Of a DNA stretch of 25,403 nucleotides, positions 2,305 to 18,151 are shown one piece after another. Numbering within the stretch: position 1 is the first letter of the stretch; each line of letters begins with the position of its first letter. The stretch covers positions 1-25,403 of the IMG/VR virus record IMGVR_UViG_3300020580_000052. The stretch is one strand, 5' to 3'. This DNA is from a virus. The translations under genes were made by a program, and so were the position numbers. The notes beneath the pieces were generated by a model. That model saw only the letters and a list, made by a program, of their open reading frames with translations, made no database searches and was not told the origin of the DNA.

Positions 2305-3129
2305 TTAACCGATTAAAAACGACGGTGGCATACTGCCATTTGACATGTCTTGATAGTTTTTCAAGTCTTCTTCTAATTTAGCCATTTCTTCTTTAGCTTC
2401 TGCTTTTAATTCAGCACCATTCAAACTAGTTCCGCCTTGTGGTCCAGCCAAACTTTGGAATTTACTACGCGCTTCACCTAACATAAATTTAGCTTTAGCG
2501 TAAGCATAATCTTGCACCCATGGAAACGAAGAATAGCTATTCAAAATTGCTTGATCTGTTCTATAGTTATAAACCCATAGTAATACTACCTCGCCGCCGT
2601 CTGGAACTTTACGACTAATAACAAGTTTTTTTGATACTGGATCGAATGTATATTGAATGTGGCCGCCGAACATACGCATTGCTAATGATTGATATTCAGA
2701 GAATAATTCATATGAAGCTAATCCGCCGACCTTACCAGCAGTAAGCATATACGTATTCAAATATCCTGACGCAAATGGTTCGAACTGTGATGCTGCTGTT
2801 CCTGTCACACTACCGATACCGCGACGCAAAATTTGACGCACACTTATTGTTTCAAGCGGCAAATAATAATCTGTTTGATCTTTGATTAGTTCCATAAACG
2901 CATAGCTTTCTTCTACTGAGTTAGCTGAACGTTGGCGATATTTTTGCATCGCGTAAGAAATAGCTAGATCATAGTGTTCTTTATCTAAATCGATATCGAC
3001 CATTTGATCACCAAGACTATAGCGAATATAATCTTTAATTAATTTTTTTTGTGTCTCAGCGTCAGGCAATGTCGGTGCCATATATTGCTGTGGTGGCGGG
3101 TTATAGGGAAATACAGGATTGAGTGCCAT
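2305..3129 (-). CDS. Neck / head-completion-type structural protein (gp13-like candidate)
   Basis: This is a 274-residue protein. A Pro-rich N-terminus (about 1-25) is followed by helical segments around IKDYIRYSLGDQMVDIDL and HYDLAISYAMQKYRQRS (residues about 31-70), then beta-rich sequence with LPLETISVRQILRRGIGS (about 97-115). The C-terminal part (about 215-262) is helical and rich in Lys, Glu and Ala. The order 'short helical head with an acidic strand, then a helix ending in KYRQRS' resembles phage head-tail connector and neck proteins. In T4-like genomes the partner of gp14 and gp15 would be gp13, but that name is inference. The Shine-Dalgarno GGAG is 6 bases before ATG and lies inside an RNA hairpin (see 3131-3175). 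A late box is at 3150-3157. Convergent with the adhesin gene, sharing its terminator. Confidence 0.65.
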   Translation of the reverse strand: MALNPVFPYNPPPQQYMAPTLPDAETQKKLIKDYIRYSLGDQMVDIDLDKEHYDLAISYAMQKYRQRSANSVEESYAFMELIKDQTDYYLPLETISVRQILRRGIGSVTGTAASQFEPFASGYLNTYMLTAGKVGGLASYELFSEYQSLAMRMFGGHIQYTFDPVSKKLVISRKVPDGGEVVLLWVYNYRTDQAILNSYSSFPWVQDYAYAKAKFMLGEARSKFQSLAGPQGGTSLNGAELKAEAKEEMAKLEEDLKNYQDMSNGSMPPSFLIG

Positions 3130-3130
3130 A

Positions 3131-3175
3131 AAAATACTCCGATTACTGATATTTACCAGTTAGTCAGAGTATTTT
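3131..3175 (-). promoter_or_regulatory. Hairpin that buries the Shine-Dalgarno of the neck-like gene
   Basis: On the minus strand AAAATACTC (3175-3167) can pair with GAGTATTTT (3139-3131), nine base pairs. The 27-base loop holds an inner CTGG/CAG pairing. The right arm contains most of the GGAG ribosome site of the gene starting at 3129. The left arm and loop contain the last codons and the TAA (3162-3160) of the preceding small gene. A ribosome finishing the small gene would open the stem, so the arrangement looks like a translational coupling switch. It could instead act as a weak terminator, since five T follow. Confidence 0.5.
3150..3157 (-). promoter_or_regulatory. Late-promoter-like box GGTAAATA upstream of the neck-like gene
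   Basis: The minus strand reads GGTAAATATC, with 20 bases between the box and the ATG at 3129. This spacing matches the other late boxes in the window. It lies in the loop of the 3131-3175 hairpin. Transcripts starting here would lack the left arm and so leave the ribosome site free. Confidence 0.5.
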
Positions 3176-3378
3176 ATAAGTAGAGATAATTTGTGCGGTT
3201 CTGATTCTACTAAAATAATATTTTTTATATCCCAAAATTCTCGTCTAATCGTTCTCTTAGAGAATTCAATAACCTCAAATTCTACCATCCAATAAACATC
3301 GTCAAACACCTTTCGTTGAAATACTAGCCGACCAAAATAATGTGATTTTTTATGAAATACTTGATCATTCGCTTTCAT
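3160..3378 (-). CDS. Small SH3-like array protein 12 (last in operon)
   Basis: A 72-residue protein of unknown function, last in a chain of twelve small genes. Residues 4-18 (NDQVFHKKSHYFGRL) fit the family's first strand pattern 'G/D-x-V-Y/F-x-K-x-x-x-F-G-x-V'. The middle has FWDIKNIILVESE, and the protein ends LSLLIKYSD, the family's C-terminal helix. It is closest to its upstream neighbour, with which it shares the spaced pattern WD-KNII-VESE-H-L-L, so the pair looks like a duplication. Its start overlaps the upstream stop by four bases (ATGA). Its stop codon lies inside the hairpin that covers the next gene's ribosome site. Fold and function are inferences from the pattern only. Confidence 0.75.
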   Translation of the reverse strand: MKANDQVFHKKSHYFGRLVFQRKVFDDVYWMVEFEVIEFSKRTIRREFWDIKNIILVESEPHKLSLLIKYSD

Positions 3379-3596
3379 GATTTCAAAATCAATTCTAGAT
3401 AGTGCTTTTCTGATTCTACTTTTATAATGTTTTTAGAATCCCAATAATTGTGACGTAGATTAGTTATATCACCAGACTCAGAGTCTGGAATAATTTCCAA
3501 GAATGGCCTACTCTTATACATCACTGATTCTCCTGTCGCAGTTCCGAATTTCTTCCATCTTTTGTGATAATACCTATTATCAAATTCATCTATCAT
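3375..3596 (-). CDS. Small SH3-like array protein 11
   Basis: A 73-residue unknown protein. It begins MIDEFDNRYYHKRWKKFGTA, where YYHKRWKKFG is the family's strand-1 motif without the usual preceding GD. The motif NYWDSKNIIKVESE sits before a shortened tail that ends LELILKS, lacking the final KYA/KYG residues of most members. It is coupled to both neighbours by 4-base ATGA overlaps (3375-3378 and 3593-3596). The close match to the next gene downstream suggests a local duplication followed by divergence in the central segment, where the two differ most. No catalytic motif, signal peptide or membrane segment is visible. Confidence 0.72.
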   Translation of the reverse strand: MIDEFDNRYYHKRWKKFGTATGESVMYKSRPFLEIIPDSESGDITNLRHNYWDSKNIIKVESEKHYLELILKS

Positions 3597-3841
3597 CGTC
3601 TAGCATCCCCAAATTTTAATTTGTAGAACAATAATTCTTGTTCCGTAATCTTTTCACAATCAGAAGCAAGCCAATAGTCACAGTCATCACATTCTACATT
3701 ATACATCCGATGATATTTTTCTTCTTCATCATCAAAGAAGGTCGTATTGATATCATTGACAGTGCCAACTAGATTGTATTTTCTGTTGTAAAGATGATCG
3801 CCTATATTAAATATAGGTAGGTTAGTAACTGTTTGTTCCAT
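3593..3841 (-). CDS. Small SH3-like array protein 10
   Basis: An 82-residue acidic protein. FNIGDHLYNRKYNLVGTV (about residues 10-27) is the family strand-1 motif. The middle is rich in Asp, Glu and Cys (VECDDCDYWL, then CEKITEQE), and the tail is LLFYKLKFGD. The segment 'V-x-DD-x-YW ... E-x-LLFYKLKFG' is closer to the members at 14771-15152 than to its neighbours, so it links the two arrays. The three clustered cysteines do not form a standard zinc knuckle. The gene begins 20 bases inside the end of the upstream gene, the longest overlap in the chain. Confidence 0.72.
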   Translation of the reverse strand: MEQTVTNLPIFNIGDHLYNRKYNLVGTVNDINTTFFDDEEEKYHRMYNVECDDCDYWLASDCEKITEQELLFYKLKFGDARR

Positions 3842-4124
3842 ATTTAAGAATCACTGCTAGTCGTTGTTTTGGAGTATCTTCTTTAAGTAAAATACCATGC
3901 TTATAAAAATTCAGAAATCCCGGTGGGGAATCTTCAATACAATAAGAGTAACATACTACACCAAATTTTTTCATGAAACCATTCTCAGCTACTACTTTAG
4001 CACCCAATCGCTTTCCAAAGAATTTATATTTTTTTCTGAATCCAACTACATGCCACCATTCTTCTGAAGGCGGATAGTAGATCACATCACCTTTCTCAAT
4101 AGAACGCATTTCATCTTTAGTCAT
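3822..4124 (-). CDS. Small SH3-like array protein 9
   Basis: At 100 residues, the longest array member. After a short helical start, IEKGDVIYYPPSEEWWHVVGF (about residues 9-29) carries the GDVIYY strand motif with an inserted aromatic loop. A basic stretch (RKKYKFFGKR) follows, and the tail KEDTPKQRLAVILKYG ends with extra TNSY. The DTP-x-QRLA-x-x-LKYG tail is one of the clearest copies of the family signature. Four-base overlap with the upstream gene (4121-4124). The function is unknown. The basic and aromatic surface could suit nucleic acid or protein binding, but nothing in the sequence proves it. Confidence 0.73.
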   Translation of the reverse strand: MTKDEMRSIEKGDVIYYPPSEEWWHVVGFRKKYKFFGKRLGAKVVAENGFMKKFGVVCYSYCIEDSPPGFLNFYKHGILLKEDTPKQRLAVILKYGTNSY

Positions 4125-4357
4125 GAGTATTTTAATTGTATCGCTAGTCTATTTTGTGGGGTGTCTGGGCCTTGACATTTAATTGTATTGTGTTTCCACC
4201 AATGTTCGACGCCGACTAAAGATGGTCCAATACCGTTATGGCTATACACATCAACAGCTACAGTCATCATGATTTTTCTAGGATTTTCACGAACAATTCC
4301 AAAACGATCCCATCTCTTATCATAGACAAAATCAAATTTTTTAAATTCATTGTCCAT
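4121..4357 (-). CDS. Small SH3-like array protein 8 (type A copy)
   Basis: A 78-residue protein starting MDNEFKKFDFVYDKRWDRFG. It contains SHNGIGPS (near residues 39-46), WWKHNTIKC and the tail GPDTPQNRLAIQLKYS. It is strikingly similar to the gene at 4552-4785: both share FKKFDFVY, HNGIGPS, KHNT-x-KC and NRLAI at the same spacing. A different family member sits between them, giving an A-B-A'-B' order. The start lies 11 bases inside the upstream gene. The first seven codons (MDNEF...) match those of the next gene upstream at DNA level. Unknown function, no enzymatic motif. Confidence 0.76.
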   Translation of the reverse strand: MDNEFKKFDFVYDKRWDRFGIVRENPRKIMMTVAVDVYSHNGIGPSLVGVEHWWKHNTIKCQGPDTPQNRLAIQLKYS

Positions 4358-4562
4358 ATTTAATATCCATCATCAATTTTGTTTGGGGTGAATCATCATT
4401 TACTGCAACTATATTTTTTTCTAACCACAACTTAGTATTTGAACCAAGTGCGTCAGTAACTTTAACATGAATAAACCCTCGATCCGCCAAAAAAGTTACC
4501 TTTCCGAATTTATGATAAAGTTTATGATAAACAATGGCACCGACTTTAAATTCATTGTCCAT
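4347..4562 (-). CDS. Small SH3-like array protein 7 (type B copy)
   Basis: A 71-residue protein starting MDNEFKVGAIVYHKLYHKFG, one of the best copies of the strand-1 motif. The central part is distinct from the type A copies. It ends LWLEKNIVAVNDDSPQTKLMMDIKYGQ-like, the family tail in which DDSPQTKL replaces DTPQNRL. The first strand also resembles residues 315-327 (VWVYHTKYRKIG) of the 403-residue protein that heads the operon. Eleven-base overlaps join it to both neighbours. The type B partner is the gene at 4775-5017. Confidence 0.75.
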   Translation of the reverse strand: MDNEFKVGAIVYHKLYHKFGKVTFLADRGFIHVKVTDALGSNTKLWLEKNIVAVNDDSPQTKLMMDIKYGQ

Positions 4563-4785
4563 GTTTAATCCTGATGGCTAAACGATTTTTAAGATTGTCT
4601 GGTCCATAGCATTTTACAGTATTATGCTTAAACCAATATTCAGTGCGAATGAATGATGGTCCTATACCGTTGTGTTTATAAACATCAATTTTTAATGTTT
4701 GTTTAAAAGCTGTCTCGCTTACAATACCAAACGAATCAATTAATTTATTATAAACAAAATCAAATTTTTTAAATTCAGTCTGCAT
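4552..4785 (-). CDS. Small SH3-like array protein 6 (type A copy)
   Basis: A 77-residue protein starting MQTEFKKFDFVYNKLIDSFG, with HNGIGPSF, YWFKHNTVKCYGPD and NRLAIRIKHGQ. It is the closest relative of the gene at 4121-4357. The conserved NGIGPS and KHNT motifs are specific to these two members of the array, so they likely mark a sub-family. The tail has lost the TPQ (DNLKNRLAI). The stop and next start overlap by 11 bases within AAACATGGACAATGA. Function unknown. Confidence 0.76.
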   Translation of the reverse strand: MQTEFKKFDFVYNKLIDSFGIVSETAFKQTLKIDVYKHNGIGPSFIRTEYWFKHNTVKCYGPDNLKNRLAIRIKHGQ

Positions 4786-5017
4786 ATTTTATTTGAAGTG
4801 CTAATCGTTTTTGTGGAGTATCTTCTTCTAAAATTACTATATTAGACAAATACCATTGTCCATGTATGTCAGGATTATGATCTTCCACCTCGACTTCATA
4901 TATTAATTCTTCCGAATTTTGTAGGGCGGCACGACCCCAGCTAGTGAGCAAAGAACCAAATTGTTTTCGTTTTTTATGAAATACTATCGTGCCAATTTTT
5001 AATTCCATAATAATCAC
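4775..5017 (-). CDS. Small SH3-like array protein 5 (type B copy)
   Basis: At most 80 residues. The longest frame begins at a GTG (5017) that overlaps the preceding stop as GTGA. An in-frame ATG nine bases later (5008) gives MELKIGTIVFHKKRKQFG, which aligns better with other members, so the true start may be 5008. The strand-1 motif is followed by a divergent centre (YEVEVEDHNPDIHGQWYL), then SNIVILEEDTPQKRLALQI and KYAD. It is the type B partner of 4347-4562 in the A-B-A'-B' order. No clear Shine-Dalgarno precedes either start, in line with coupling to the upstream gene. Confidence 0.73.
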   Translation of the reverse strand: MIIMELKIGTIVFHKKRKQFGSLLTSWGRAALQNSEELIYEVEVEDHNPDIHGQWYLSNIVILEEDTPQKRLALQIKYAD

Positions 5018-5247
5018 AAATATTTTAATGAAATAACAAGTTTTTCTTCTTCAGAACAAACAGGAATGAATTTGCTTTTATCAAGTAAGGACCAATCAGA
5101 TATGAAAACGTCGCACTGATACAATGGATGTTGCAATCCAATATAATTAATATACCTGTCATTGCACATCATTTTTATCTCTGAGACTGTGCAAAACACT
5201 AGTCGATCTAAATCAAAAAATATAGAATTTACTTTGATATCATGCAT
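5014..5247 (-). CDS. Small array protein 4, divergent
   Basis: A 77-residue unknown protein. IKVNSIFFDLDRLVFCTV (about 4-21) keeps the hydrophobic spacing of the family's first strand but lacks the K-x-x-x-FG core. The tail CSEEEKLVISLKYL keeps the last-helix pattern, with SEEEKL in place of TPQNRL. Membership therefore rests mainly on position, size and the tail. The upstream stop overlaps its ATG as TAATG. Function unknown. Confidence 0.68.
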   Translation of the reverse strand: MHDIKVNSIFFDLDRLVFCTVSEIKMMCNDRYINYIGLQHPLYQCDVFISDWSLLDKSKFIPVCSEEEKLVISLKYL

Positions 5248-5543
5248 TACTTGCAGCCATATTTTAGAATAAATGCTAATTCTTCCTGTGGATTATTTAT
5301 TTTGGTCATCTTACTATCTCGTAACCAACAATTCCAATGATGCAAACTTATTGTTCCATACGTTGGTGCATCATCTAAATCCCCTTCGTATCCGTAAGCA
5401 CAAAGATAATGCACCAGCATTGAATCTCCAGAACTACTCAGTAGTGTTTTTACAATTTTCATTTTGCAAAATTCGTCATACTTATTAATTAAATAATAAA
5501 TTTCGTCAGTTGCTGGTGGATTAAGAAGATGCATATCAGGCAT
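5247..5543 (-). CDS. Small array protein 3, divergent
   Basis: A 98-residue unknown protein starting MPDMHLL. The centre has a basic helix-like part (INKYDEFCKMKIVKTLL) and a HHWNCWLRDSKM segment where other members have W-x-x-x-N-I. The tail NNPQEELAFILKYGCK fits the family (PQ-x-x-LA-x-x-LKYG). The junction at its start, in the sequence AAATATGCCTGATATGC, is identical to the junction at the start of the gene at 14961-15152, 9.6 kb away. The two proteins share the start MPDM although the rest differs. Confidence 0.7.
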   Translation of the reverse strand: MPDMHLLNPPATDEIYYLINKYDEFCKMKIVKTLLSSSGDSMLVHYLCAYGYEGDLDDAPTYGTISLHHWNCWLRDSKMTKINNPQEELAFILKYGCK

Positions 5544-5790
5544 ATTTTAACTTTAAAAATAAACGATTTTCGGGAGTGTCGGGATCTAGTTTAATTGTAA
5601 GATTAGTGCTCCATGGATAAACAGCAATGTGATTTAGCGCACGGCAATCTAAATCATGTTCCACACTCACTATAGTATATGGCGCTTCCGCAGTATCTCT
5701 ACATTGAAGCATTTTTCCAAAAAATCCTGTCTTTGTATTAAAGACTGAATCTCCTGCCCTTAATTCTGATCCATTTATATCCTTAGGCAT
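5536..5790 (-). CDS. Small SH3-like array protein 2
   Basis: An 84-residue protein. LRAGDSVFNTKTGFFGKML (about residues 10-28) is a clear GD-x-V-F-x-x-K-x-x-FFGK strand motif, and IKLDPDTPENRLFLKLKYA is a full-length family tail. Between them lies a variable region with VEHDLDC. The stop TGA is part of the junction AAATATGCCTGATATG, whose ATG starts the next gene. No signal peptide or membrane segment. Function unknown. Confidence 0.75.
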   Translation of the reverse strand: MPKDINGSELRAGDSVFNTKTGFFGKMLQCRDTAEAPYTIVSVEHDLDCRALNHIAVYPWSTNLTIKLDPDTPENRLFLKLKYA

Positions 5791-5977
5791 ATTTGAGTTG
5801 TATTGCTAATCTGTTTTGTGGTGTGTCTGGTGATACAACAATAGGTGACGGAATAATCCACCATCTTAAACCATGAACCCATTCATCTAGTTCATAATAA
5901 TTACTTTCTTTAACGTACGATTGCACTTTAACGAATTTATTAGCAAAATAAATCGTATCACCAGACTTCGCATTCAT
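5783..5977 (-). CDS. Small SH3-like array protein 1 (first after the 403-residue gene)
   Basis: At 64 residues, the shortest array member. SGDTIYFANKFVKVQSY (about 5-21) is the strand motif and VVSPDTPQNRLAIQLKYA is the most typical family tail. Its last 43 coding bases (5788-5830 on the plus strand) match those of the gene at 15145-15402 at 38 of 43 positions by eye. This is much closer than the rest of the two genes. The start overlaps the stop of the 403-residue gene as TAATG. Function unknown. Confidence 0.75.
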   Translation of the reverse strand: MNAKSGDTIYFANKFVKVQSYVKESNYYELDEWVHGLRWWIIPSPIVVSPDTPQNRLAIQLKYA

Positions 5978-7188
5978 TATTCCACCTTAAGAATAATCAC
6001 ATCCTCACTCAAGCGACCAGTAAGCTTCACTTCTGTTGCTTTGATTCCACTCATGAATTTACGCAATTGAACTTTACCTGCCTTCATGAATTCAGCAAGA
6101 GTGACTTCTGGCTTACGCACTGTTTTGCACACACTTTTGACTTCATCAAAGCCAACGATGCTTGTGCCTTTGATGCTCATAGTTCCAACAGTTGAATCAG
6201 CAACGTAGCACCCGATTTTGCGATACTTAGTGTGATATACCCAAACTACTTTCGATTCCAAAATGTTGATCGGATTCACTGAAGAAATTTTCAATGCTGC
6301 ATCTTGTTTGCAATACTTCACTTTAGAAACAAGCTTATCTTTGGACGGCGCTTTCTTCACGCGTGGCTTACGAACGGCCTTCTTCGCATTGTCATATGCA
6401 GCAACATCATTCAAAATTGCATTATAAAAATCAATGCGTTTCTTAAAATCTGCTGCCTTAAATTGCGAATAGCCTTCTTTCAGTTGCTTATCTTTTCCTT
6501 CTTGCGCTTCAACCAATTCGTCGCGTTTTGTTTCAAATACTTTCTTGAAACGTGCAAGTCCAGGCTTCGGAAAACTCTTTGCATTAAAATATGCAAATGC
6601 ATCAGGATTCAATTGCTTTTTCGTATAGAAATCACTTTCCATATCTTCGAAAAATACAATATGTTGATCTACAATATCATTCACACGATCACGAACAGAT
6701 GGACGTGCAACTTTAACTGGTGCCTTTTTAACTTTAGATTGATCTTCTAGAATCGGGCCCTCTTCGTCGCTAACAAGTTTGTCATTAGCCATACGAATTG
6801 CTTCATTCACTTTCGAGAGAATGAATTCAATATGATGATCTTTAAGTGGCATCTTTTTCTTTGATGCCATAACTAGACTGCACACAGTCATCGGCGTAAG
6901 CCTTTCAGCAGTCTTACGGTAGCTTTCAAGAGTGTCAGCTTCAACGTCAGTACGACCTTTCAACCACTCTACAACATGCTTACGAGAATCTTTCGGTGTA
7001 AAGTGATGATTGTAATAATTCATGCTGCGACGCAATTTGTTATCGAATTCGTCATCCGATAGCGTCAAGCTTTCATCCCCTTTCCATTCGGGTTCGGGAC
7101 CAGTATATTTTTCTTCAATGTGTTGCGAGGAACGGATTGCGCGGGGCTTTGTCTTACGAGCGCCATCGATCTTAATCTTGCCTGCCAT
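5977..7188 (-). CDS. Lys-rich 403-residue protein with a C-terminal SH3-like segment
   Basis: A highly charged, mostly helical, basic protein of unknown function. It starts MAGKIKIDGARKTKPRAIRS. Lys/Pro/Ala-rich linkers (KVKKAPVKVARP near 152-163 and KKAVRKPRVKKAPSKDK near 269-285) separate two helical parts. Residues about 312-355 (VVWVYHTKYRKIG, then IVGFDEVKSVC) resemble the strand motif of the small proteins encoded downstream. It is the first gene of the operon: a sigma70-type promoter (7215-7243) and a good Shine-Dalgarno (TGGAGA, 7 bases before ATG) precede it, and twelve coupled genes follow. The basic linkers suggest nucleic acid binding, which is inference. No catalytic motif was recognised. 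Confidence 0.82.
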   Translation of the reverse strand: MAGKIKIDGARKTKPRAIRSSQHIEEKYTGPEPEWKGDESLTLSDDEFDNKLRRSMNYYNHHFTPKDSRKHVVEWLKGRTDVEADTLESYRKTAERLTPMTVCSLVMASKKKMPLKDHHIEFILSKVNEAIRMANDKLVSDEEGPILEDQSKVKKAPVKVARPSVRDRVNDIVDQHIVFFEDMESDFYTKKQLNPDAFAYFNAKSFPKPGLARFKKVFETKRDELVEAQEGKDKQLKEGYSQFKAADFKKRIDFYNAILNDVAAYDNAKKAVRKPRVKKAPSKDKLVSKVKYCKQDAALKISSVNPINILESKVVWVYHTKYRKIGCYVADSTVGTMSIKGTSIVGFDEVKSVCKTVRKPEVTLAEFMKAGKVQLRKFMSGIKATEVKLTGRLSEDVIILKVE

Positions 7189-7214: not shown

Positions 7215-7243
7215 ATTGTACAGCAGTTTGGATAATTTGTCAA
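7215..7243 (-). promoter_or_regulatory. Sigma70-type promoter for the small-gene operon
   Basis: On the minus strand, TTGACA (7243-7238), a 17-base spacer and TACAAT (7220-7215). The -35 is a perfect consensus and the -10 matches five of six. Expected start is near 7208, leaving a leader of about 20 bases with TGGAGA before the ATG at 7188. It is host-RNA-polymerase-like and so probably early, in a region otherwise made of late genes. Confidence 0.85.
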
Positions 7244-7281
7244 TAACCGTTGTTTTTATGCAACAACCGCTAAATATCTAT

Positions 7282-7300
7282 ATCAGAATAGTATTCTGAT
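7282..7300. repeat. 19-bp palindrome (possible operator)
   Basis: Perfect inverted repeat ATCAGAATA / TATTCTGAT around a central G. It lies about 40 bases upstream of the -35 of the array promoter and 6 bases after the orphan late-type box. It could be a protein-binding operator or the 5' hairpin of an RNA. Confidence 0.6.
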
Positions 7301-7378
7301 AGTTCAGTGGTTTTGAATTTGGCGAAGGGCATACAAATAAGACCCGAACAGCTTTTTGCAAGCTTGTTGTAAGAAAAG

Positions 7379-7405
7379 AAAAAGCGCTCATTTGAGCGCT
7401 TTTTT
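7379..7405 (-). terminator. Terminator of the 168-residue gene
   Basis: AAAAAGCGCTCA, loop TT, TGAGCGCTTTTT. The stem overlaps the end of the minus-strand gene (stop TAA at 7406-7404), so it ends that transcript. The arms are identical to those of the terminator at 2262-2287. On the plus strand it would also work. Confidence 0.9.
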
Positions 7406-7910
7406 ATTTTGCTTTGATCGTTTTTGTCGTTACATGAACGCGTTCCAAACTTTCAAAATATCCAGTCCAGGGCACATGAACAGTATAAGTCTGACCGTTA
7501 TCTAACTCAACTTTTAGGGAGTATCTATCTGAGTCTAGATACGTTGAGTTTTGATTTTCTTCAAAATCTTTACAAGCTTTTGCGCACTTCTTTGCTTTTT
7601 CTTCATCAACAAACGCAGCAATAAGCTCATATTGCCCATAATCAGTACCAAATGAGTCACCTGTCGTATATTCAGCCCAAACAATATAGACTATATCGCC
7701 AGGTTCGACCTCTGCGCCCACAACCAAATCACAATTTGGGAAATCTCCATTCTTCAGCGAATATGCCAAAGATTCTTTCGCATCTAGCGCAGTAACTTCT
7801 CCGAGATTATTAGTTGTTCTAGAAGAATCTCGCGACCATTCATCGTCATCGACGCGGCCGCCTGTATTTTCGTATTCAGATTCCAACTCTATTAATAATC
7901 CAGTTGCCAT
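7404..7910 (-). CDS. Hypothetical acidic phage protein, 168 residues
   Basis: I do not recognise a characterised family. Residues about 1-50 are acidic and probably flexible. Residues about 70-110 (EPGDIVYIVWAEYTTGDSFG, then YELIAAFVDEEKAKKCAK) look like a small alpha/beta domain. The C-terminus (YSLKVELDNGQTYTVHVPW, then VHVTTKTIKAK) is beta-rich. The phrase GDIVYIVWAEY recalls the GD-x-VY start of the small array proteins, but the rest differs. It is a single-gene unit with its own extended -10 promoter at 7937-7965, the Shine-Dalgarno GAGA and its own terminator. That separates it from the gp15 gene upstream and the array downstream and suggests an early accessory role. Confidence 0.75.
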   Translation of the reverse strand: MATGLLIELESEYENTGGRVDDDEWSRDSSRTTNNLGEVTALDAKESLAYSLKNGDFPNCDLVVGAEVEPGDIVYIVWAEYTTGDSFGTDYGQYELIAAFVDEEKAKKCAKACKDFEENQNSTYLDSDRYSLKVELDNGQTYTVHVPWTGYFESLERVHVTTKTIKAK

Positions 7911-14559: not shown

Positions 14560-14778
14560 TTAGTTACTCTTAGTTATCTGCCAAGCTCGAAATGCTTGTG
14601 TTATATCTACATAAACTTGAACTACTGGATTGTAGTCAAAGGGTTCTCTGCGTGAGACTCTTACTGTGGCATTATCTACTTGTCCTGAATCAATTTGACT
14701 TTGAACATAATGAAAGAAATCTTGAACTTTAAAGAAATTTTGCAATACAGCAACACCGTTTAGTTTATAATCATCCAT
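14560..14778 (-). CDS. Small hypothetical protein at the end of the second small-gene cluster
   Basis: A 72-residue protein of unknown function. It begins MDDYKLNGVAVLQNFFKVQD, has a helical middle (FFHYVQSQIDSGQVDNATV) and a beta-like part (VVQVYVDITQAFRAW). It lacks the GD-x-VY strand and LKYA-type tail, so it is not a clear member of the SH3-like family, although its start is coupled to the upstream member by an 8-base overlap. The stop is followed by a weak inverted repeat (TACAAA/TTTGTA) and a T-rich stretch that may end the operon. Confidence 0.65.
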   Translation of the reverse strand: MDDYKLNGVAVLQNFFKVQDFFHYVQSQIDSGQVDNATVRVSRREPFDYNPVVQVYVDITQAFRAWQITKSN

Positions 14779-14968
14779 ATTTTATCCTGTATAACAATGA
14801 TTCGTTTTCAGAAAGTTCTATTACTTCATTCGGAATCCAATAAAAGTCATCGTCACTATCCACATCATACCAATGTATAGGATCGCTTTCATAGTAACCT
14901 ACGACCGTTCCTACCTTTTTCTTTTCAGTATTAAACAGGACAGTTCCAATTGGTAACATATTATCCAT
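14771..14968 (-). CDS. Second-cluster SH3-like small protein (copy 1)
   Basis: A 65-residue protein: MDNMLPIGTVLFNTEKKKVG, then VDSDDDFYWIPNEVIEL and the tail SENESLLYRIKYG. It is a near twin of the next gene upstream, sharing MLPIGTVLFN, the SDDxxxW segment and the tail spacing. IGTVLFN-x-x-x-K-x-G is the strand motif of the family in the first cluster. The pair looks recently duplicated. Overlaps both neighbours by 8 bases. Function unknown, with an acidic surface (pattern DSDDD) in the middle. Confidence 0.75.
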   Translation of the reverse strand: MDNMLPIGTVLFNTEKKKVGTVVGYYESDPIHWYDVDSDDDFYWIPNEVIELSENESLLYRIKYG

Positions 14969-15152
14969 GTTTTATAACATAAAAGAGTGCTTCTTTTTCA
15001 GGAACCAATTCAACGTCTTGTGGAGCCCAAAACCATTCATCGTCAGAATCTATATCATAATAATTTTTTTCATATGAATATCCGATGACCATCCCCATTT
15101 TCTTATATTTGTTATTGAACAATACTGTTCCGATTGGTAGCATATCAGGCAT
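14961..15152 (-). CDS. Second-cluster SH3-like small protein (copy 2)
   Basis: A 63-residue protein: MPDMLPIGTVLFNNKYKKMG, then YYDIDSDDEWFWAPQDVELV and the tail PEKEALFYVIKHG. It pairs with the gene at 14771. Its start lies inside a 19-bp sequence (15140-15158) identical to 5531-5549 in the first cluster, so the start MPDM is shared with the unrelated-looking member at 5247-5543. This points to exchange at gene junctions. Function unknown. Confidence 0.75.
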   Translation of the reverse strand: MPDMLPIGTVLFNNKYKKMGMVIGYSYEKNYYDIDSDDEWFWAPQDVELVPEKEALFYVIKHG

Positions 15153-15402
15153 ATTTTATTTGTATCGCTAATTTGTTTTGTGGTGTGTTTGGGTCAACTT
15201 TAATCAAATGATCTGGGTTTGCAACAAATCTAAATTTGATTTCGATTATATCTGCCTCATCTTCATATACTAATAAAATATGATCTTCTATATTTTTGTA
15301 TGTCTGAATTCCTCTGACTACACAGAAAAATCCTGGGTGGTCATCATTTACAACTTGTTTGAAGTCGTAATAGACTAAATCGCCTTTGTTGAAATCAATC
15401 AT
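15145..15402 (-). CDS. Second-cluster SH3-like small protein with typical tail
   Basis: An 85-residue protein. FNKGDLVYYDFKQVVNDDHPG (about 4-24) has the GDLVYY strand, and the centre contains an FFCVVRGIQTY strand and a basic/acidic stretch. The tail KVDPNTPQNKLAIQIKYA is the full family signature. Its 3' coding end is nearly identical to that of the gene at 5783-5977 (38 of 43 bases by eye at 15150-15192), while the upstream parts differ. It overlaps its neighbours by 8 bases at both ends. Function unknown. Confidence 0.76.
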   Translation of the reverse strand: MIDFNKGDLVYYDFKQVVNDDHPGFFCVVRGIQTYKNIEDHILLVYEDEADIIEIKFRFVANPDHLIKVDPNTPQNKLAIQIKYA

Positions 15403-15661
15403 TTTTTATTTTATGAACTAACATTTCTTTTTCGTTATCGAAAAATATACAATCATGCGTAGGCCAATGTGTTCTAAACGTAACGCATTCAGGAAATGAT
15501 CTATAATCAACATATGCGCCAGCTAAATTTTGCATAGTGATTTCACCATATTGCTTTTCTTTCCAATTAAATGCATATTCTTTGGCAAGAAAGTGTTTGT
15601 CATACTTCTGCATTTCTTTTTGGATGGCTATCTTCTTTTCTCGCCAAGTTTTGCCTGACAT
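15395..15661 (-). CDS. Divergent second-cluster small protein
   Basis: An 88-residue protein. The first 27 residues are basic and helical (TWREKKIAIQKEMQKYDKHF). Then comes a beta-rich part (YGEITMQNLAGAYVDYRSF and CVTFRTHW), and the end NEKEMLVHKIKND keeps only the spacing of the family tail. The GD-x-VY strand is absent, so family membership is tentative. It overlaps the next gene by 8 bases and begins three bases after the stop of the zinc-ribbon gene. Function unknown. Confidence 0.65.
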   Translation of the reverse strand: MSGKTWREKKIAIQKEMQKYDKHFLAKEYAFNWKEKQYGEITMQNLAGAYVDYRSFPECVTFRTHWPTHDCIFFDNEKEMLVHKIKND

Positions 15662-15865: not shown

Positions 15866-17350
15866 TTAATCTATCAAATTTAATTCTTCATTTTGATACA
15901 TAGAATTATTCATAGTCTTATGACCTCTCACTTTTTTATCAACGTCAGGCAATCTAACCATAATAATTATGTCATCTTTGTTGTGTTTGCCACTCAAAAC
16001 AAATTTTTTCCAACTGTTTTTGTGTTTTCCAGGACCATCGAGTATTAAAATTTGATCTGTGAAGTTGTGTTGAGTAGAGATATTCTTATCTAACCAATTT
16101 TCCATGTAGTCATACTTATTTTTACTTGCATTATGCCTGCTGAAGGACCCGTAAGATGTAGTTCCTTCGTTTTTATGTTCTATGTCTATCTTGTGCTGAA
16201 TTTCAGCGTCAGTCAAATTATTTCCTATATTTACAAATTTGTACCTTTTATTCGACGCCACTCCCCTTTTTTGGGCCATGCGTCTACTAAGCTTACCACT
16301 ATATTGATTTACTGATATCTGTCCGGCCGCAAGTTCAAATGATTGGACTTCTGTATATACTTTAATCTTATAACCAACTTCATGATAGTGAAACACTCTG
16401 CCAGAGGCTTGTATGATAGTGTTATACGGTGATTTCGATTTCCAATCATGCCAAAATACTATATCTTTGTGAAAACCGACTTCCGTTGATCTTGTGCAAG
16501 TTTGATTTATAACCAATAATACCCTCAGTGAGGTATCTTGCTCATAACTCTCACGCATCCTACTTATGTATGACGAATGTTTAGACCAGTCAAATCCTTC
16601 ACCACCTTTAATTACTTTAATTTTCAAATTAATTTTCGCATTCTTAGAAGAGGCCAATAACAGTTTTTCAAGAGCATGTTGTTTTTTACCTAACTGAGTT
16701 ATACGTAATACTCCAATGAATTTATCTTTAGAATAGAATAATTCGTCTAAAGCAGTGTTTCCTTGTGGTGTAATGATATTAGCTATATCATCATAAAATT
16801 GTTCTGCTTCTTCAACTAAATTGTTCGCTAAAAACCAAGCGGCACCTCTATAAGAGGCGGGCGGAACAAATTCAGTTTTATATGGGTCCAAATCACTGCA
16901 CAACATTTCTTCGTTCGAGGCTGAATACCCTAATACTTTTATATGCTCTTTTTGAAGTCTCTTATATACCTTAATTGCAAAAGTTTGTTCAGAGTCAGTT
17001 CCGTAATCAGATTCATTAAAATGCAAATAAAAAGGTTTTTTGCGTTTATCTAATACATCAAGCCGATTCTCTAGGTCAGTAATATCGCGGGACAGGAAAA
17101 CCTCAAACCCATTTTCCTCTAACTCTTCGAGTTGTTCCTTTTCATCTAGCCTATCTAGCGCTGAAAAATATATATGAACAGCGTCGGGTGTGAGAGTTTT
17201 GAAACAAATGCTTATTCCTCTCTTACCAGATTTTATTGGTGCAATTGCAGCAACGCAATCTGAATTTAAAAGGCCTGGCTGCAATTGTTTTTCGCAATAT
17301 TCAAATATTTCTGGTCTATTTTGTTCAAACCATTTTTTAGTGTAGATCAT
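15866..17350 (-). CDS. Degenerate SF2 helicase-like protein
   Basis: A 494-residue protein. The ATG at 17350 has AAGGAG five bases upstream and overlaps the HNH stop as ATGA, so it is preferred over an ATG eight codons earlier. Motifs in SF2 order: a phosphate-loop-like APIKSGKRG near 37-45, a Walker B-like YLHFNESDYG near 108-117, a motif III-like GYSAS near 141-145 and a motif VI-like QASGRVFHY near 314-322. The key positions deviate: GKR instead of GKT/S, and NESD instead of DExD. It may therefore be an inactive or unusually tuned ATPase. The C-terminal 150 residues are basic (KLSRRMAQKRG, GKHKNSWKKF). It follows an HNH endonuclease gene, an arrangement suggesting DNA or RNA remodelling, but the substrate is unknown. 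Confidence 0.7.
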   Translation of the reverse strand: MIYTKKWFEQNRPEIFEYCEKQLQPGLLNSDCVAAIAPIKSGKRGISICFKTLTPDAVHIYFSALDRLDEKEQLEELEENGFEVFLSRDITDLENRLDVLDKRKKPFYLHFNESDYGTDSEQTFAIKVYKRLQKEHIKVLGYSASNEEMLCSDLDPYKTEFVPPASYRGAAWFLANNLVEEAEQFYDDIANIITPQGNTALDELFYSKDKFIGVLRITQLGKKQHALEKLLLASSKNAKINLKIKVIKGGEGFDWSKHSSYISRMRESYEQDTSLRVLLVINQTCTRSTEVGFHKDIVFWHDWKSKSPYNTIIQASGRVFHYHEVGYKIKVYTEVQSFELAAGQISVNQYSGKLSRRMAQKRGVASNKRYKFVNIGNNLTDAEIQHKIDIEHKNEGTTSYGSFSRHNASKNKYDYMENWLDKNISTQHNFTDQILILDGPGKHKNSWKKFVLSGKHNKDDIIIMVRLPDVDKKVRGHKTMNNSMYQNEELNLID

Positions 17351-18051
17351 ACTATCTCCTTTCTGGACTTGCATTTATCAAAATGCCAGCGCTTCATAAC
17401 ATTTTGTTGGCCACTTAACCTACAATGAGGACATTGTACGATTGGACTCATTCGCTTTTGTTTTACTTTAGTCAATTTTGCATAACACTTAATTTTATGT
17501 CGAGGTAAATTCCATGAATGAAATAGTTTCTTGCAATGCTCACACTCATGAGTCGGTGCTAATTTATCTTTATTTTCTTCTCTATATTTTCTACCTGCTT
17601 CTGCTATCTTTAGTCTTGTTTCTTCAGATTTTGTTGTTCCGATTAAACCTTTACTTATATTTTGTTTATGATCTTCGGATAAGGTAGAACCTACTTTAGC
17701 TTTTCTAATTTTAGCTTTTCGTTCTTCTGTAAATATTGTTCCTTCTTGTGCTTTTGCAGTAAGCTCTCGAATCCATCCGAATCTTTTATTCTTTGATCTG
17801 GCGCCGCTAAACTTTGCAGTCGATACTGTCATCATATGAACAGCTAGAATTAAATCTCTGTTGCCTGGATAAATTTTAACCAAGAGTTGATGTGCCAAAA
17901 AGTGTTCAGGGGCAGTAAGTGCAACCAAATTTGTAACGGCATCTTTTCCACCTAGACATTTTGGGATAATATGGTGTAATTCTGAATAACCCGTAAGTTT
18001 TCGATTTTGGGCGCGAGTTATAAGAAGATTGTAATGTTTTTCATAGTTCAT
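17347..18051 (-). CDS. HNH endonuclease with NUMOD-like repeats and two zinc knuckles
   Basis: A 234-residue protein. The HNH motif covers residues 24-54: ELHHIIPKCLGG (His26, His27), then NLVAL (Asn41) and EHFLAH (His50, His54). Residues about 106-152 hold NUMOD3-type repeats (FTEERKAKIRKAKVG, LSEDHKQNISKG, KSEETRLKI), DNA-binding elements of homing endonucleases. Two Cys/His knuckles follow, with Cys170, Cys173, His185 and Cys189, and then Cys207, Cys210, His223 and Cys227. T4-like phages often carry such mobile nucleases next to structural genes, and this one sits just past the major capsid gene. A sigma70-type promoter ends six bases before the ATG, so the mRNA may lack a leader. Confidence 0.88.
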   Translation of the reverse strand: MNYEKHYNLLITRAQNRKLTGYSELHHIIPKCLGGKDAVTNLVALTAPEHFLAHQLLVKIYPGNRDLILAVHMMTVSTAKFSGARSKNKRFGWIRELTAKAQEGTIFTEERKAKIRKAKVGSTLSEDHKQNISKGLIGTTKSEETRLKIAEAGRKYREENKDKLAPTHECEHCKKLFHSWNLPRHKIKCYAKLTKVKQKRMSPIVQCPHCRLSGQQNVMKRWHFDKCKSRKEIV

Positions 18052-18052
18052 T

Positions 18053-18087
18053 CTTGCATTATATAAGAGCCTATACGAAAATGCAAG
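18053..18087 (-). promoter_or_regulatory. Sigma70-type promoter of the HNH operon, with flanking inverted repeat
   Basis: On the minus strand, TTGCAT (18086-18081), 17 bases, TATAAT (18063-18058). The -10 is perfect. CTTGCAT and ATGCAAG (18053-18059 and 18081-18087) form an inverted repeat that brackets the core promoter and could bind a regulator. The ATG at 18051 is about seven bases after the -10, so transcription would start at the start codon. Confidence 0.72.
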
Positions 18088-18098
18088 TCTATATTAGT

Positions 18099-18126
18099 AA
18101 AAATGGACACCGAAGTGTCCATTTTT
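18099..18126 (-). terminator. Terminator after the major capsid gene
   Basis: On the minus strand AAAAATGGACAC, loop TTCG, GTGTCCATTTTT. A 12-bp perfect stem with the very stable UUCG tetraloop and a T-run, 26 bases after the capsid stop. It separates late capsid transcription from the HNH operon promoter. Confidence 0.92.
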
Positions 18127-18151
18127 AATCAACATATTACCAAACAAAAAA

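Follow-up and report, generated by a model that had tools for sequence, protein, structure and literature searches.

A tandem array of small genes for predicted SH3-like barrel proteins among the neck genes of a T4-like phage lineage

The sequence analyzed (hereafter the window) is an IMG/VR virus fragment of 25,403 bases, and genes were read from this fragment alone. Judged from these predicted genes, the window specifies proteins of a T4-like head and neck. It encodes a portal protein (PF07230, Pfam), a capsid protein sharing 65–68% identity with the capsid proteins of Phosso, Vibrio 2.275.O, PA5oct and their relatives, and, by profile matches, a tail sheath stabiliser and the head-tail adaptor Ad2. 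Amid these particle-building genes lies a tandem array of small genes (array A). Its upstream border is g403 (5977–7188, minus strand), a phrog_11903 gene (PHROGs E = 6e-60) that is first in the transcription unit. Its downstream border is the Ad2 gene (phrog_211; 2305–3129, minus strand; PHROGs E = 1.3e-33), which in most relatives directly follows g403.

Array A comprises twelve minus-strand genes of 64–100 amino acids, as a previous sequence-only reading had proposed. In the order of transcription, and with the E-value at which a family profile recovered each, these are a12 (5783–5977, 64 aa, 1.2e-9), a11 (5536–5790, 84 aa, 2e-12), a10 (5247–5543, 98 aa, 1.8e-5), a9 (5014–5247, 77 aa, 2.6e-7), a8 (4775–5017, 80 aa, GTG start, 2.5e-16), a7 (4552–4785, 77 aa, 5e-8 with a5 removed too), a6 (4347–4562, 71 aa, 4.6e-14), a5 (4121–4357, 78 aa, 2e-12), a4 (3822–4124, 100 aa, 4.6e-7), a3 (3593–3841, 82 aa, 3.2e-9), a2 (3375–3596, 73 aa, 1.2e-7) and a1 (3160–3378, 72 aa, 8.7e-11). 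The first of them overlaps g403 by 1 nt, and all 11 junctions from a12 to a1 overlap, by 8, 8, 1, 4, 11, 11, 11, 4, 20, 4 and 4 nt. Use of an in-frame ATG three codons downstream of the GTG of a8 would abolish its overlap. A second, smaller cluster on the minus strand (array B) contains b4 (15145–15402, 85 aa, 2.9e-11), b3 (14961–15152, 63 aa, 1.6e-8) and b2 (14771–14968, 65 aa, 2.2e-11). It may be headed by b5 (15395–15661, 88 aa), which overlaps b4 by 8 nt and is a borderline member (E = 0.019). The G+C content of the two arrays (3160–5977 and 14771–15661) is 0.33, compared to 0.38 for the window.

The E-values above are from leave-one-out profiles, in which the query and its nearest relatives were kept out. 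All 12 array A members were found (2.5e-16 to 1.8e-5), including a10, the most divergent, while the best background and shuffled controls for the twelve scored 0.079 and 0.017. BLASTP also linked individual pairs (a5/a7, 1e-33; a6/a8, 1e-9; a1/a2, 7e-9). On this sequence comparison, the twelve genes of array A form one paralogous family. At 14771–15402, which the previous reading had suggested including in a profile comparison, three genes belong to the family (E = 1.6e-8 or better). All 16 proteins together gave an initial alignment whose diversity precluded a locus search. Scanning 36 members against Pfam and NCBIfam, SH3-like families included, gave no score above a curated cut-off, the best scores being single chance-level matches (0.0041 and 0.0077). 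There was likewise no fitting PHROGs family, no match to the PADLOC models, which describe defence systems and not the inhibition of such systems, and no match among solved structures by sequence profile. We considered an origin from the C-terminal part of g403, with which an 11-residue likeness (VYHTKYRKIGC) exists, and rejected it as the hhalign probability was 1%.

Two sequence features had been described for the family. The N-terminal strand pattern GD-x-V-Y-x-K-x-x-x-FG-x-V occurs in most members and is weak in a9, a10 and a12. The C-terminal DTPQxRLAIQxKYA-like tail is clear or nearly so in seven of the twelve (a4, a5, a6, a7, a8, a11 and a12), and the rest have only a shorter L...[LI]K core. 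The broader description, of constant ends and a changing middle, holds for the proteins and also at the DNA level.

We modelled two members using AlphaFold. The a8 model (36-row alignment, pLDDT 87) is a five-strand SH3-like barrel (strands 11–14, 19–23, 38–44, 52–56 and 60–63) followed by a C-terminal helix (68–77) that corresponds to the conserved tail. The a10 model (pLDDT 76) has the same strand-helix order, and its alignment took in other family members, which may bias it towards the a8 fold. Both models show the order of an SH3-like small beta-barrel (five strands, with a short helical turn before the last), so the predicted structures agree with the barrel that had been suspected from the strand pattern. 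A common predicted fold and profile homology, the absence of which would have spoken against a related set, were thus both found. The matches that Foldseek and VIA-align gave, to chromo, PWWP and tudor structures among others, were weak throughout but consistent. The top Foldseek match was the HspQ-type structure 5ycq. The likeness to known small barrels (chromo barrel, PWWP, tudor, HspQ) is one of fold (best VIA-align Z = 7.2 over 72 residues), whereas sequence identity is low and no Foldseek match reached E ≤ 0.001. As the SH3-like barrel is a common fold, no common function follows from this likeness.

Most joints between genes fall within the conserved tail. At 6 of the 11 array A junctions, and at those of array B, the next start codon lies inside the tail codons, and in the 8-, 11- and 20-nt overlaps the next ATG is located within the tail's Lys-Tyr/His codons (tATGxx). 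Tail DNA is common to b4 and a12, and among relatives some tails are identical in long blocks, that is 45 nt between A1 and A2 and 35 nt between B3 and B5 of a 32-kb relative (G001), and 32 nt between C2 and C4 of L008. More than 63 nt upstream, identity drops to 10–33%. Comparing gene pairs, which are not independent of one another, identical amino acids were encoded by identical codons at 65% in tails versus 51% in bodies when tails were similar, and at 52% in tails and bodies alike when tails were dissimilar. Tail DNA that is nearly the same in genes with unrelated bodies suggests that the joints undergo recombination or gene conversion. The shared tails would fit conversion, exchange between joints, or a duplication whose body was then replaced, and they could stem from the last of these rather than from repeated exchange.

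To place the array in its lineage, we fetched g403 relatives from IMG/VR, counting distant ones where the fragment covers the locus. Nearly all of these distant relatives, like phage Paride, have Ad2 immediately after g403 and no array gene in between; in L026 an unrelated ORF separates the two. Array A thus splits a gene pair that is otherwise adjacent. It was detected only in the closest relatives, which are L003 (same array), the contigs behind L004–L007, and L008. Other T4-like phages had been suggested as places in which the same arrays might occur, and this held for the closest IMG/VR relatives and not for the distant g403 relatives. No annotated phage was matched at E ≤ 1 by tblastn with a4, a5, a8 and b3, and a profile search of Paride, phiM12, Phosso and Vibrio 2.275.O found no family members. 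Searching IMG/VR with the tail pattern, which requires a canonical tail and would miss diverged arrays, returned only the four known relatives. The same pattern gave ten single matches in cellular genomes, none repeated, and we read these as chance.

The array changes quickly where it is present. Array A has 12 copies in the window, 14 in the contigs behind L004–L007 and at least 7 in L008, where the contig ends; array B has four versus eight copies between close relatives, and G001 has 22 copies in two arrays. Ten of the 12 array A genes of the window have G001 counterparts at 62–94% identity, a12 and a5 have none there, and four G001 genes conversely have no counterpart in the window. The best match of a5 in the 14-copy relative is at 44%. 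This turnover occurred despite 82–97% identity among close relatives in the proteins flanking the array. The differences in copy number and content between near relatives support the earlier description of a diversifying set, in the sense of rapid turnover.

Diversification in the sense of positive selection was not supported overall. Between the window and G001, dN was 0.127 and dS 0.570 for pooled bodies (ratio 0.22), and dN was 0.037 and dS 0.220 for tails, compared to dN/dS of 0.03–0.09 for neighbouring genes. By these substitution estimates, the array genes are under purifying selection that is weaker than that on their neighbours. A dN/dS below 1 does not demonstrate diversifying selection, and weaker constraint would look alike.

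An early-type promoter had been proposed to drive the array. We found a sigma-70 promoter match, TTGACA-17-TACAAT (7215–7243, minus strand; 11 of 12 positions), upstream of g403 and hence of the whole unit. Nearly all relatives, Paride included, carry an 11/12 or 12/12 match 52–61 nt ahead of g403, and of 2000 stretches of 120 bases drawn at random from the window 3 reached 11. Terminator-like hairpins, with both strands scored, occur before this promoter (7378–7405) and after Ad2 (2262–2287). At the other end of array A, about 28 nt upstream of Ad2, we read GGTAAATA (3150–3157, minus strand) as a putative late promoter core. It is a weak match; many relatives have GATAAATA or GCTAAATA in the same place. 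Structural genes of the lineage, including Ad2 of many relatives, have GNTAAATA about 26–34 nt upstream, and in several relatives nothing clear was seen. The TAAATAY core does not exceed its chance frequency in the window as a whole, so the late motif is inferred from its position and conservation. The conserved sigma-70 promoter upstream, together with the T4-late-type motif at the adaptor, indicates that array A is likely made early in infection.

Among other signals near the arrays, a possible operator is the inverted repeat TATCAGAATAcTATTCTGATA (7281–7301), which precedes the promoter of g403 by about 38 nt. It is present in L003 and L006 and was not seen in L008. For array B itself there is no clear promoter. 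Within 18040–18140, a hairpin after the capsid gene is followed by TTGCAT-17-TATAAT before a homing endonuclease gene, and this is possibly the promoter of array B.

The array had been described as unusual, and as a kind of arrangement it is known. Tandem arrays of >30 similar genes, read as tandem duplication, were reported for the jumbo phages G and 121Q (Hua et al., 2017; PMC5646251). The present arrays share with them many similar genes head to tail, with 12 plus at least 3 members in the 25-kb window and 22 in the 32-kb relative, as read from fragments. What is new is the family, its place and its joint. In 121Q, we found a family of 25 members (53–90 aa; motif LGTNYQE), 23 of them within 155.7–162.2 kb and many overlapping. 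No homology to the 121Q arrays was detected: a profile search of the G and 121Q genomes was empty at E ≤ 1 and profile-profile probabilities with four 121Q families were at most 0.3%. Several tandem small-gene families (L069–L086) are located at about 133–180 kb of 121Q, among them the 25-member family and a dispersed one with the motif EExxFQxS.

Repeated junctions are also a feature of PeSL cassettes (Arbiol, 2010; Comeau, 2014), which have been proposed to shuffle genes between T4-like phages (PMC4503421). As described there, a PeSL is a promoter and stem-loop between genes, whereas the repeated joint of the array is itself coding sequence and carries a start codon. Measured against that description, the array is organized differently: there are no gaps between its genes, and a promoter and hairpin occur once, upstream only.

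Taking these results together, we give a probability of about one half to the reading in which small SH3-like barrel proteins, most likely early products, are encoded by an array that is specific to the lineage and both grows and shrinks. The tail could act at three levels. As protein, it would be the helix closing the barrel; as RNA, it would contain the next gene's start codon, which would allow coupled translation; and as DNA, it would offer a stretch of homology where complete cistrons or their bodies may be gained, lost or swapped with the overlap intact. The variable bodies may be surfaces that bind different host or host-defence proteins, giving the phage a limited and changing repertoire of inhibitors or adaptors, a tentative proposal from sequence to which we give slightly less than even odds. 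The fullest version, in which early SH3-like anti-defence binders are exchanged cistron by cistron through a coding joint that is simultaneously part of the protein, a point of translation restart and a site of recombination, is unlikely. DNA mimicry was rejected, as net charges range from −8 to +6 and the set is not uniformly acidic.

The location of array A between the genes for the tail sheath stabiliser and the head-tail adaptor, and the frequency of SH3-like folds in binding roles, would suit virion decoration or accessory neck proteins, the products attaching to the particle and their variable faces altering surface binding. This is quite improbable given that the array has a sigma-70 promoter upstream and a late-type motif downstream, with the former and not the latter in front of the unit, and that relatives with the same neck genes have no array at this place. 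The products might alternatively be subunits of a mixed ring or filament, coupled translation from overlapping genes yielding matched amounts of the variants; the fold matches include R67 DHFR, in which SH3-like barrels form an oligomer. Such matches are weak (Z under 8), and copy number and composition differ between close relatives, so we regard hetero-oligomers as very doubtful. The raised dN/dS, the turnover, the restriction to one lineage and the low G+C of the arrays are instead what duplication and recombination could produce by expanding a small early gene under weak constraint, most copies having little present function. A dN/dS of about 0.2, reading frames that are intact in every copy, and the preserved overlaps point to selection on the proteins, making this amplification rather unlikely.

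The preferred reading, of an early and changing set of small barrels, bears on where large phages get their small early proteins and how these diversify. With near relatives of 12, 14 and at least 7 copies, and with outgroups that have no array, gains, losses and exchanges can be traced; the fold, the promoter and the joint render the functional question testable with cloned genes.

Two further proteins of the window were noted. A 502-aa protein (15866–17374) is helicase-like by eye; it matched no Pfam family above the cut-off and, within the limits applied, no PHROGs family. A 168-aa protein (7404–7910) has weak DUF7336 similarity, below the Pfam cut-off, and contains a segment, ESLAYSLKNG, that resembles the tail of the array family and gives a weak profile match.
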